Shown: positions 4,160-15,917 of the stretch, piece by piece
How positions within the stretch are numbered: the stretch's first letter is position 1
Layout: each line of letters opens with the position of its first letter
Assembly: GCA_021789915.1 (NCBI GenBank)
Contig: JAJYIV010000004.1
Coordinates: 1 to 58,757 of the forward strand
Reading direction: 5' to 3'
Length of the DNA: 58,757 nucleotides
Source: a bacterium
Lineage (GTDB): Bacteria; Patescibacteriota; Patescibacteriia; UBA9934; GWF2-40-263
Made by a program: the position numbers and the translations under genes
Notes under the pieces: model-generated
Seen by the model: only the letters and a program-made list of their open reading frames with translations
Databases searched by the model: none
Told to the model about the DNA's origin: nothing

Positions 4160-4744
4160 TCAGAAGAGGCGCGGCTGGCCGACATCGGCCCAGTACTCTT
4201 CCACCTTCTTGAGATACGCGGCGAACGTCATGGCCTCCGGTTCATGATCGATAAGGTGCTCGACGACGTAGTCGCGCGCCGCGTCCCAGCGGAAGCGCAT
4301 GGGCGCGTGTCCGCTGTCGAGGTACAGGCGGAACACGCTTTCGCCGCCGTCCTCCGGGGTGCCTGGCTCCGGCTTCCACTGGCGGGGTTCCAGCGGCGAC
4401 CATTCATCCCGGCCGTCGGGGTGTCGCAGGACGAAGGCTTCGTGCGCCGGCACCGCTTCCCCGGCCACGGCAACGAAGAACGTCGCGTACGAAGACGGAT
4501 TCTTCTGCGGGAAGAAGACGTCACTGGTCACCAGGTCAGCCTGGGTCGGCACGTTCTGTTCGTCCACGTGGATACCGATCTCCGCGGCGCGGAGCACGCC
4601 CTCGAGCTCCGCCGCTTTCGCGTTGATCCGTACGCCTCGCCGCTTCCCGTCCTTCCAGACGAGCAGTACGTCGTCGGCGACGGATGGCTGCACGGCGACG
4701 CCCGACGTCAGTTTGCCGTCCGGCGTCAAGGTAAAGAACCGCAT
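4160..4744 (-). CDS. Hypothetical protein (194 aa)
   Basis: ORF with AAAGGGGG ribosome-binding site before ATG (MRFFTLTPDGKLTSG...); C-terminal part of the listed 313-aa ORF. Confidence 0.75.
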   Translation of the reverse strand: MRFFTLTPDGKLTSGVAVQPSVADDVLLVWKDGKRRGVRINAKAAELEGVLRAAEIGIHVDEQNVPTQADLVTSDVFFPQKNPSSYATFFVAVAGEAVPAHEAFVLRHPDGRDEWSPLEPRQWKPEPGTPEDGGESVFRLYLDSGHAPMRFRWDAARDYVVEHLIDHEPEAMTFAAYLKKVEEYWADVGQPRLF

Positions 4745-8842: not shown

Positions 8843-10192
8843 ATGAACCTCGTCATCGTCGGCACCGGCTACGTCGGGTTGGTCAGCGGGCTGGGCTTTG
8901 CCAAGCTCGGCCATCAAGTCGCCTGCGTGGATACGGACGCGGGCCGCATCGCGCGGCTGGATCTGGGCGAGGCGCCGTTTTACGAGCCCGGCCTTAAGGA
9001 ACGCCTGGATGAAATGCAGCAGGCCGGCCGCGTCGTCTTCACGACGAGCCTCTCCACCGTGCTGCCGAACGCCGATATCGTGATGATTGCCGTCGGCACG
9101 CCGGCGCGGCCGACCGGCGAGGCCGACGTGGGCGCCGTCTTTTCCGTCGCGGACGAAATCGGGAGCCTGCTCGCCCACGAGGTCCTCCTTGTCGTCAAAA
9201 GCACGGTCCCTGTGGGCACCAACCGCCAGGTGCTCGCGCACGTCCGTGCGGCCATGGCGCAGGCGGGGCGCGCAGACAAGGCGGAGCTCGTCACGATTGC
9301 CTCGGTGCCGGAGTTCCTGGCCGAAGGCCGCGCCCTGGCCGATTTCGACCGCCCGACGCGCCTCGTGATCGGCACGGACACGGAGGCGGACCGCCTGCTG
9401 CTCGATCGCCTGCACGAAGGGGTGGAGGCGCCGCGCGTCTTCCTCTCCGTGGAGAGCGCCGAGCTCGCCAAATATGCCGCCAACGCGCTCCTGGCCACGA
9501 AAATCTCCTTCATCAACGAGATCGCGAACGTCGCCGAGCGCGTCGGCGCGGACGTGCGCGACGTCGTGCGCTCCATGAGCCTCGATCCGCGCATCGGGCC
9601 GCATTTCCTGCAGCCGGGCGTCGGCTACGGCGGCTCGTGCTTCCCGAAGGACGTCGCGGGCCTGTACCAGATGGCCGGCGCCAGCGGCTATGATTTCAAA
9701 CTGCTGTCCGCCGTCATCGAAGTGAACAACCGCCAGCGCGAACGGTTCGTGAAGCGCCTCGAGGAAGCGCTGGGCGGGCTGCAGAAGCGCGCGGTCGCCG
9801 TGTGGGGCCTGGCCTTCAAGGGGAACACGGACGACGTGCGCGAGAGCGCCGCGATCGACATCGTGCAGCGCCTGTTCGCGCGCGGCGCCGACGTGACGGT
9901 GTACGACCCGCAGGCCATGGATCCCGCGCGCCGGCACTTGTCCGACCGCGTGCAGTACGCCGCCACGGCGGTGGATGCGGCCGCAGGCGCGGAGGCGCTC
10001 CTCGTGCTTGCCGACTGGATCGAGTTCCGCGCCGTCTCCTGGTCGACGCTCAAGGGCGTGATGCTCGAGCCGCGCGTGTTCGACGGACGCAACTGGCTCG
10101 CCGACCTCGATTTGCCGTCGTTCGGGTTCGAGTATCACGGCGTGGGATTTTCCTCCGGCCTGCCTGCCGGCAGGCAAGCGCCGCGTGCCTGA
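8843..10192 (+). CDS. UDP-glucose 6-dehydrogenase family
   Basis: MNLVIVGTGYVGLVSGLGFAKLGHQV, VGYGGSCFPKDV. Confidence 0.93.
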   Translation: MNLVIVGTGYVGLVSGLGFAKLGHQVACVDTDAGRIARLDLGEAPFYEPGLKERLDEMQQAGRVVFTTSLSTVLPNADIVMIAVGTPARPTGEADVGAVFSVADEIGSLLAHEVLLVVKSTVPVGTNRQVLAHVRAAMAQAGRADKAELVTIASVPEFLAEGRALADFDRPTRLVIGTDTEADRLLLDRLHEGVEAPRVFLSVESAELAKYAANALLATKISFINEIANVAERVGADVRDVVRSMSLDPRIGPHFLQPGVGYGGSCFPKDVAGLYQMAGASGYDFKLLSAVIEVNNRQRERFVKRLEEALGGLQKRAVAVWGLAFKGNTDDVRESAAIDIVQRLFARGADVTVYDPQAMDPARRHLSDRVQYAATAVDAAAGAEALLVLADWIEFRAVSWSTLKGVMLEPRVFDGRNWLADLDLPSFGFEYHGVGFSSGLPAGRQAPRA

Positions 10193-14398: not shown

Positions 14399-14505
14399 TG
14401 TAACCGCTGCCGATGTCAGCCACGGGAGTCGACGGCGCCTTGAGCCTGCCTGCCGGTAGGCAGGGCCGGCAGGCCGGAGGGGCCCGTGGAACGTGGAACG
14501 ACGAG

Positions 14506-14536
14506 AAAAACGCCCCGCGGAGGCGGAGCGTTTTTC
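14506..14536 (-). terminator. Terminator at the end of the minus-strand tRNA cluster
   Basis: AAAAACGCTCCGC-CTCC-GCGGGGCGTTTTT on the minus strand. Confidence 0.7.
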
Positions 14537-14572
14537 TGGTCGGGCTGGCGGGGCTTGAACCCGCGGCCTCTT
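14537..14572 (-). tRNA. 3'-half tRNA fragment (T-arm, acceptor, encoded CCA)
   Basis: Minus strand AGAGGCC-GCGGG-TTCAAGC-CCCGC-CAGCCCG-ACCA with no adjacent 5' half. Confidence 0.6.
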
Positions 14573-14577
14573 CTCTT

Positions 14578-14678
14578 GTCGCACGCTGTGTCGGGCTAGC
14601 CGGACTTGAACCGGCGGCCTCTTGCACCCCATGCAAGCGCTCTAGCCATCTGAGCTATAGCCCGACACAGCGTGCGAC
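14578..14678. repeat. 21-bp perfect inverted repeat extending the tRNA-Pro acceptor stem
   Basis: GTCGCACGCTGTGTCGGGCTA (14578-14598) / TAGCCCGACACAGCGTGCGAC (14658-14678). Confidence 0.9.
14591..14664 (-). tRNA. tRNA-Pro(GGG)
   Basis: CGGGCTA-TA-GCTC..GAGC-G-CTTGC-ATGGGGT-GCAAG-AGGCC-GCCGG-TTCAAGT-CCGGC-TAGCCCG-A; complete cloverleaf. Confidence 0.85.
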
Positions 14679-14773
14679 TCGAGCCGGGGTTGTCCGGCCC
14701 GGCTTCCGCCGTGCATCGGTCAACCCGTTCAGCCGGCTCGGAGCAACGCCGGTTGCTCCTTGCTTCGGCTGAA

Positions 14774-14810
14774 CCCCCATGCAAGCGCGCTACCACTGCG
14801 CCATAGCCCG
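14774..14810 (-). tRNA. 5'-half tRNA-Pro-like fragment (acceptor 5' strand, D-arm, CTTGC-ATGGGGG)
   Basis: Minus strand CGGGCTATGGCGCAGTGGTAGCGCGCTTGCATGGGGG, then unrelated structured sequence. Confidence 0.6.
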
Positions 14811-14820
14811 AAGTGAGGCG

Positions 14821-14849
14821 AGTGTAGCCGATCCGCGCGGCGGCGGCAA
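14821..14849 (-). promoter_or_regulatory. Promoter for the minus-strand tRNA cluster
   Basis: TTGCCG-17 bp-TACACT on the minus strand, just upstream of the tRNA 5' half. Confidence 0.6.
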
Positions 14850-14930: not shown

Positions 14931-15917
14931 ATGCGTCTGAACGATCCCGTGTACGGCTCCGCAGAGGTGACAGAGCCCTTGCTCGTCGCCTTGATCGAAA
15001 GCCCCGCGCTGCAGCGGCTCAAAGGCATCAGCCAAAACGGCTACATGACGCCGTGGCATTCCGGCGCGACGACGAGCCGCTTCGATCATTCCGTCGGCGT
15101 AATGCTGATGCTGTGCCGCGCGGGCACTTCGGTGGAAGAGCAGGCTGCCGGGTTGATCCACGACGTCTCTCACGGCGTGTTTTCCCATGCGATTGATTAT
15201 CTGCGCGGCGAAGCGGATTGGGAGTTCCAGGATCGGATCATGGGATCATTCCTGCAGGCGCGCACGGATCTTCCGGCGCGGACGGCGGCGCACGGGTATC
15301 CGATGGATCTTCTGCTGGATGACGCGCGCCATCCGCTCAAGGAGCGGCCGCTGCCGGACGTGTGTGCGGATCGTTTGGACTATTCGCTGCGCGACGGGCT
15401 CGCGTTCGGCGTCCTCTCCCGATCGGAAGCCCGACGTTTTTTGGACGCCCTGACGGCGGAAAACGGCCGCTGGGTGTTTCGCAACCTCGAGGCGGCACGG
15501 GCGTTCTCCGAGATGTTCCGCGTCATGAGTCGCGACTGGTGGTCCGGATTTCCGTCAGCGGTCGCCTTCACCTACACCGTGGCGTTTCTTCGCCATGCGT
15601 TGAAAGCCGGATACGTCACGGAGGATGATTTGTACGGGACGGAATCGGATTTCCTTGCTCGGGCGAATGCGCGGACGGATGACGCCGCCGCGTCCCGGCT
15701 CTGGCGCCGCATGCATGATCCGAACGGATGGCGCAACGATCCGTCGCAGCCGGACGCCAGGATCGTGTGCAAGTCGCGCATGGTCGATCCGCTCGTGAAA
15801 ACGGCGGGCGGCCCCGTCCGCCTCTCGGTGCTGCAGCCGGATTGGGCCGGCATCGTCGCGGCGGAATCCGCGCCGAGGGAGTGGTTTCCAGTGTACGACA
15901 GTGCGCGTGACACATGA
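14931..15917 (+). CDS. HD-domain phosphohydrolase
   Basis: RFDHSVGVMLML..AGLIHDVSHGVFSHAIDYL. Confidence 0.85.
   Translation: MRLNDPVYGSAEVTEPLLVALIESPALQRLKGISQNGYMTPWHSGATTSRFDHSVGVMLMLCRAGTSVEEQAAGLIHDVSHGVFSHAIDYLRGEADWEFQDRIMGSFLQARTDLPARTAAHGYPMDLLLDDARHPLKERPLPDVCADRLDYSLRDGLAFGVLSRSEARRFLDALTAENGRWVFRNLEAARAFSEMFRVMSRDWWSGFPSAVAFTYTVAFLRHALKAGYVTEDDLYGTESDFLARANARTDDAAASRLWRRMHDPNGWRNDPSQPDARIVCKSRMVDPLVKTAGGPVRLSVLQPDWAGIVAAESAPREWFPVYDSARDT

Follow-up and report, generated by a model that had tools for sequence, protein, structure and literature searches.

On the minus strand of the window, by which is meant the whole 58,757-nt stretch of bacterial DNA analysed here, positions 14810 to 14502 hold a complete tRNA-Pro gene enclosed by the two halves of another. 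The pieces described in the original prediction, at 14537-14810 on this strand, were confirmed at the coordinates given for them. Read along the minus strand from 5' to 3', the features of the locus are as follows.

14844..14849, minus strand: possible -35 box, TTGCCG (read from the sequence only)
14821..14826, minus strand: possible -10 box, TACACT, 17 nt from the -35 box (from the letters alone)
14774..14810, minus strand: outer tRNA-Pro 5' half, running through the end of the anticodon loop, CGGGCTATGGCGCAGTGGTAGCGCGCTTGCATGGGGG (tRNA match, 19 bits)
14727..14774, minus strand: family-1 hairpin A (covariance model match and covariation)
14687..14726, minus strand: family-1 hairpin B, GGGTTG..CAACCC (conserved start in other copies, own-strand pairing, fold)
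14665..14678, minus strand: 5' strand of the stalk that carries the inner tRNA (complementary to 14591-14578)
14591..14664, minus strand: inner complete tRNA-Pro(GGG) (ARAGORN; RF00005, 64 bits)
14578..14590, to 14591 in the pairing, minus strand: 3' strand of the stalk (complementary to 14678-14665)
14537..14577, minus strand: outer tRNA-Pro 3' half, with variable loop, T arm, acceptor strand and CCA
14502..14536, minus strand: intrinsic-terminator-like hairpin (14525-14511) and T run

The promoter proposed for this array, TTGCCG-17-TACACT, matches the consensus weakly, and its score lies under the threshold of the promoter scan. What had been called hairpin-rich sequence turns out to be a pair of separate hairpins, A at 14774-14727 and B at 14726-14687, and the first base of hairpin A is at the same time the last base of the outer anticodon loop. 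The 3' half, earlier placed at 14572-14537, is better drawn at 14577-14537, with a short degenerate stretch preceding it. The inner tRNA-Pro(GGG), in which CCA is not encoded, is closed by an extra leader-trailer stem of 13-14 bp, and the 279-nt strand is predicted to fold at -160 kcal/mol (z = -7.8 against shuffles). Leader-trailer complementarity is also found in some other tRNAs of this genome (G000) and is thus not specific to the nested tRNA.

Several G000 tRNAs (L004 Phe, L015 Ala) have such long complementarity, of about 11-17 extra bp, as do tRNA genes of other genomes (L037, L038 and L066, in G011, G001 and G012); among the genes of this type, CCA is often not encoded in tRNA-Pro(GGG). 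They are possibly former nests, or the long stems possibly a general processing feature. Elsewhere in the window, a 20-bp near-perfect palindrome, CCTGCCTACCGGCAGGCAGG, occurs at 14445-14464, 2373-2392 and 10159-10178, where none would be expected by chance, and other genomes have similar palindromes in or close to tRNA copies (e.g. L197). Adjoining the locus on the plus strand, 14931-15917 encodes a 328-aa protein with a single homologue (in G009) among 42 genomes of the family, and hence of patchy distribution.

Comparison with 59 relatives clarifies what the outer halves are: the two match neighbouring parts of one and the same intact tRNA-Pro gene, and the counterparts of the inner tRNA are genes apart from these. 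Because the halves occur in relatives as one continuous tRNA, the outer gene is to be read as a tRNA-Pro that has been interrupted, and the earlier proposal of one tRNA-Pro broken near the anticodon loop is borne out. As for the pairing of the halves, the C1-G72 pair is present as proposed, but there is an A7-C66 mismatch and three of the five anticodon-stem pairs are left. The mismatch and the broken anticodon stem go with a mixed likeness of the outer gene: its 5' half (14774..14810) is 100% identical across 36 nt to a relative's intact tRNA-Pro(GGG), and its 3' half is 97% identical across 37 nt to a relative's intact tRNA-Pro(CGG). In the assembly (1.06 Mb, 95.6% complete), intact tRNA-Pro genes were found for all three anticodons, with CGG on contig C40, TGG on contig C7, and the inner gene of the nest as the sole intact copy for GGG.

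The insert that separates the halves contains a conserved, gene-less double-hairpin element of about 100 nt. Insertions resembling it in both sequence and structure are present in two other genomes (G059 and G065), and a covariance model (R1), followed by a refined model (R2), was used to search for further copies. The window element itself, at 14720-14780, scores 82 bits under R1 and 71 under R2; the window also holds a weak match on the minus strand at 4571-4633 (23 bits, E 0.01), which is probably due to chance. Matches to R1 were obtained in 11 of the 72 genomes of the order, where the highest number per genome was 11 copies (G004), and in 25 of the class's 380 genomes (Candidatus Uhrbacteria and relatives), with up to 10 copies each, and R2 gave a few matches in other Patescibacteria. 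The named records among the matches are Candidatus Uhrbacteria, and an exact core pattern recovered 11 stretches from the genome contig collection, ten titled Candidatus Uhrbacteria and one titled 'bacterium', and none from IMG/VR. No description of the element turned up in the open-access library that was searched.

Hairpin A consists of a 9-bp stem, conserved internal loops and an 8-bp apical stem, and two adjacent positions of its lower stem are conserved G.A-type mismatches instead of standard pairs. Across 53 copies, all 19 of its 19 pairs have changed on both sides, and the covariation score is 0.514, against 0.164 for shuffled and 0.02-0.07 for slid controls. Hairpin B starts with GGGYNNR-NCGATG and ends in RCCC, after which CGGA is often present. 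A best-complement scoring of this hairpin proved biased and was replaced by a swapped-strand control, over which the own-strand pairing stands out; hairpin B is backed less firmly than hairpin A.

One rival reading is a novel small intron, in which the outer tRNA-Pro would be spliced after removal of the element and the inner tRNA, yielding two tRNAs per transcript, a reading implied by the original prediction. The position, the sense orientation and the conserved RNA-like structure would all suit it, and the intron mode of ARAGORN accepts the outer 5' half joined to the inner 3' half; any duplicated tRNA, however, would be expected to give such a join. Contiguous excision never rebuilds a canonical outer tRNA, since it gives no canonical 5-bp anticodon stem in G000 and none that goes with a U33 in G059, and this argues against an archaeal or nuclear-type (BHB) tRNA intron as well. 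Moreover, the Pro anticodons are served by intact genes, and many other copies of the element sit in 5' or 3' tRNA fragments that are incapable of making a tRNA. The proposed search for group I or group II introns gave no match to the Rfam intron models, and a cmscan of the insert and several other copies against Rfam 15, at permissive E-values, returned no non-tRNA match above the gathering score. As excision does not restore the outer tRNA and fragments predominate, splicing is extremely improbable here.

Reading the flanks of 79 copies placed about 28 within partial tRNAs, all in the sense orientation, in D-, anticodon-, T- or variable loops. By eye, tRNA-Pro carries eleven of them in its anticodon loop; D-loops hold about ten, directly after GG (Gln, three Ser, two Pro, Thr, Trp, Ala and Ile), T-loops about five (Met, Leu, Thr, His and Ser) and a variable arm one (Leu). 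The interrupted isotypes include Pro, Gln, Ser, Trp, Ala, Ile, Thr, Leu, Met and His, and this range implies many independent insertions. Nearly all of these copies adjoin or enclose an intact tRNA of their own kind: with D-loop copies, a displaced 5' fragment usually lies upstream of that tRNA, with T-loop copies a 3' fragment usually lies downstream of it, and anticodon-loop copies go with either kind of fragment or with a nest. An intact same-sense tRNA occurs within 300 nt of 31 of the 79 copies, against a chance of about 1.7% for each (binomial P about 5e-34), and only an antisense intact tRNA is nearby for 2 of the 79; counted by genome, 24 of 35 have at least one copy near an intact same-sense tRNA, against about 1.3 expected. 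Copies outside tRNAs, those of G004, G022 and G031, lie between genes and have an outer stem that closes them and varies, and some in G004 and G049 are far from any tRNA. Overall, the element constitutes, across tiny-genome Patescibacteria, a conserved, covarying, dispersed and patchily distributed family that is enriched in tRNA loops and is always in the sense orientation there. Three of the interrupted tRNA-Pro genes (L175 in G261, L137 in G033 and L184 in G094) bear additional hairpin inserts in the T-loop, and those of G261 form a repeated hairpin of yet another type.

The proposal that the structured insert holds a second tRNA gains from equivalent nests in three other genomes. In G059 an outer tRNA-Pro holds the element, and hairpin B in turn holds an intact tRNA-Pro(CGG) mounted on a stalk. 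The nest of G261 has the same make-up, its outer halves being identical to the inner tRNA, and it has another insert in the outer T-loop. In G018 an outer tRNA-Pro(GGG) encloses hairpins of a second family and an inner tRNA-Pro(GGG), which stands on a 14-bp stalk; at the syntenic position, the congener G001 has one intact gene.

Insertions also vary between close relatives, namely G064 and G065, and G031 and G004, and for the second family G001 and G018. In G064 a single tRNA-Pro(CGG) lies between the same promoter region and terminator as in G065, where the equivalent site carries a tRNA 5' half, the element, a 3' scrap and then an intact tRNA. An intergenic copy of G004 is absent from the orthologous region of G031, in which the exact junction is not readable. 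For the copy in the window, no direct empty site was present among the genomes compared, none of which is of the same genus; synteny gave none because the flanking protein has one homologue in the family, in G009, and a protein scan of the genome contig collection for synteny with the locus found nothing.

These comparisons bear on the alternative, raised together with the nested arrangement, of a recombination or deletion scar alone between tandem tRNA-Pro genes, with the hairpins arising by chance template switching. The Pro(GGG)-like 5' half and Pro(CGG)-like 3' half of the outer gene speak for it, as do the tandem tRNA-Pro(GGG)-Pro(CGG) pairs of relatives such as G012 and G010, and a tandem duplication is probably part of the history of the locus. 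But duplication does not supply the element, and the inserted hairpins match a covariance family found in dozens of genomes; because the insert is a recurrent, covarying and dispersed element, a deletion scar between two tandem tRNAs is insufficient, and as the whole explanation it is very improbable.

A second double-hairpin family, unrelated to the first, is represented by nine copies in G008 and three in G018, where the hairpins read CCCCGACGC..GTCGGGG and GTCCGACC..GCGTCGGAC; a weak match in G062 lies outside a tRNA. In G008 and G018, every copy viewed is in a tRNA gene, mostly at position 15/16 of the D-loop, where it follows GCTCAG or GCGCAG and is followed by a few tRNA bases, a short spacer and an intact tRNA. 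The intact tRNAs that follow such D-loop copies are Ala, Arg, Ile, Val, Met and Thr, and two copies are of the downstream type (Pro and Ala). At one site in G008 (L253-L255, C5:17412-17638), three tandem 85-nt units, each a 5' fragment of tRNA-Val plus the double hairpin, precede an intact tRNA-Val.

Such tandem units, along with the strong structural constraint and the invariable sense placement near an intact tRNA of the same isotype, could indicate that the element-bearing fragments are selected as a functional RNA that shares a transcript with the intact tRNA and acts in leader or trailer control or in processing, instead of being selfish insertions. Yet the distribution is patchy, presence varies between sister genomes, isotypes and loops differ from genome to genome, and some copies in G004 and G049 lie far from tRNAs. 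A mobile element may likewise preserve its structure, since mobility needs structure. Selection for such a function is unlikely.

The explanation that we consider probable is that palindromic mobile elements lodge in tRNA loops, leaving the outer tRNA as a displaced, dead copy while the inner one works. A complete tRNA-Pro would thus come to be nested in a broken one because a gene-less double-hairpin element lodged in the broken copy. At the present locus, the element of about 100 nt, comprising hairpins A and B, would have entered the anticodon loop of a tRNA-Pro at about position 38/39, adjoining GGG, turning the interrupted copy into a displaced, non-functional shell that presumably yields no tRNA. 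The intact tRNA-Pro(GGG), placed on its stalk inside the insert and adjoining hairpin B, would be released from a shared precursor through RNase P cleavage and 3' processing and would gain its CCA afterwards, and the cells would have survived because this intact gene sits in the same transcription unit. Further, insertion may accompany or require duplication of part or all of a tRNA, and would be tolerated for the sole reason that a full tRNA remains. The arrangement is real and unusual, and its explanation is evolutionary, not one of splicing.

Some results count against the mobile-element explanation: no transposase or integrase partner was identified, no simple target-site duplication was present at the copies, and those of G004, G022 and G031 lie outside tRNAs. 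The Y1 (HUH) transposase (PF01797), which would be the partner in an ssDNA element of the IS200/IS605 or REP-RAYT kind, does not appear to track the element, being present in 19 of 34 element-positive and 15 of 23 element-negative genomes and absent from a one-contig genome (G570) that carries two copies. The GG of the hit loops lies on the sense strand, and the sense-only orientation could stem from target sequence, selection or insertion at the RNA level. For the last of these, hairpin RNAs and tRNAs would be joined into opened loops in tRNA transcripts, copied into DNA and recombined back, a route that would account for three things: that the orientation is strictly sense, that hairpin loops are the chosen sites, and that a tRNA lies in a hairpin in a tRNA. 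We hold it to be quite unlikely; if true, Patescibacteria would have a cycle of retro-insertion based on tRNAs.

The wider element families are a more interesting discovery than the nested arrangement itself. Since the tRNA genes of Patescibacteria are mostly single-copy, an element that enters tRNA loops must avoid killing its host. Two unrelated families seem to have arrived at one solution, in which the interrupted copy has an intact one beside it or nested in it. They offer a comparative system for the movement of gene-less palindromic elements and explain odd 'split' or 'nested' tRNA annotations in Patescibacteria genomes, and the covariance model of the element can be searched anywhere.

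Among known systems, group I introns also sit as structured inserts, in sense orientation, in the anticodon loops of bacterial tRNAs. The element differs from them in that it has no group I core, does not leave a good tRNA upon excision and occurs in D- and T-loops and tRNA fragments as well. Rickettsia palindromic elements and bacterial small mobile repeats or MITEs are short, non-autonomous palindromes that insert inside functional genes (PMC2229807); the present element is distinguished from them by its sequence, its preference for tRNA loops and its layout of a displaced fragment plus an intact tRNA. Genomic islands of tyrosine integrases split a tRNA such that the intact target and a displaced fragment mark their ends (Islander, PMC4383910), and the same pairing is seen in nearly all tRNA-resident copies. 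Unlike in such islands, the inserted stretch is about 50-150 nt, gene-less and too short for an integrase gene, the displaced piece is often the 5' part, and D-loop sites are used. The mitochondrial double-hairpin or repetitive hairpin-forming elements (RHE) are short, gene-less, GC-rich and dispersed, with a patchy occurrence between close relatives and an unknown mode of mobility, and most of those described in sponges lie between genes (PMC2800124 and the studies it cites). Compared by layout, the 79 family-1 copies likewise show two adjacent hairpins, repeated, dispersed and with no ORF, and insertion varies between close relatives among the hosts of both families; unlike RHE, they reside in bacterial chromosomes, covary strongly and prefer tRNA loops in sense orientation with an intact tRNA as neighbour. 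Judged by analogy, the element, which can be placed demonstrably in neither lineage, behaves like an RHE with the tRNA-sparing outcome of an integrase island.
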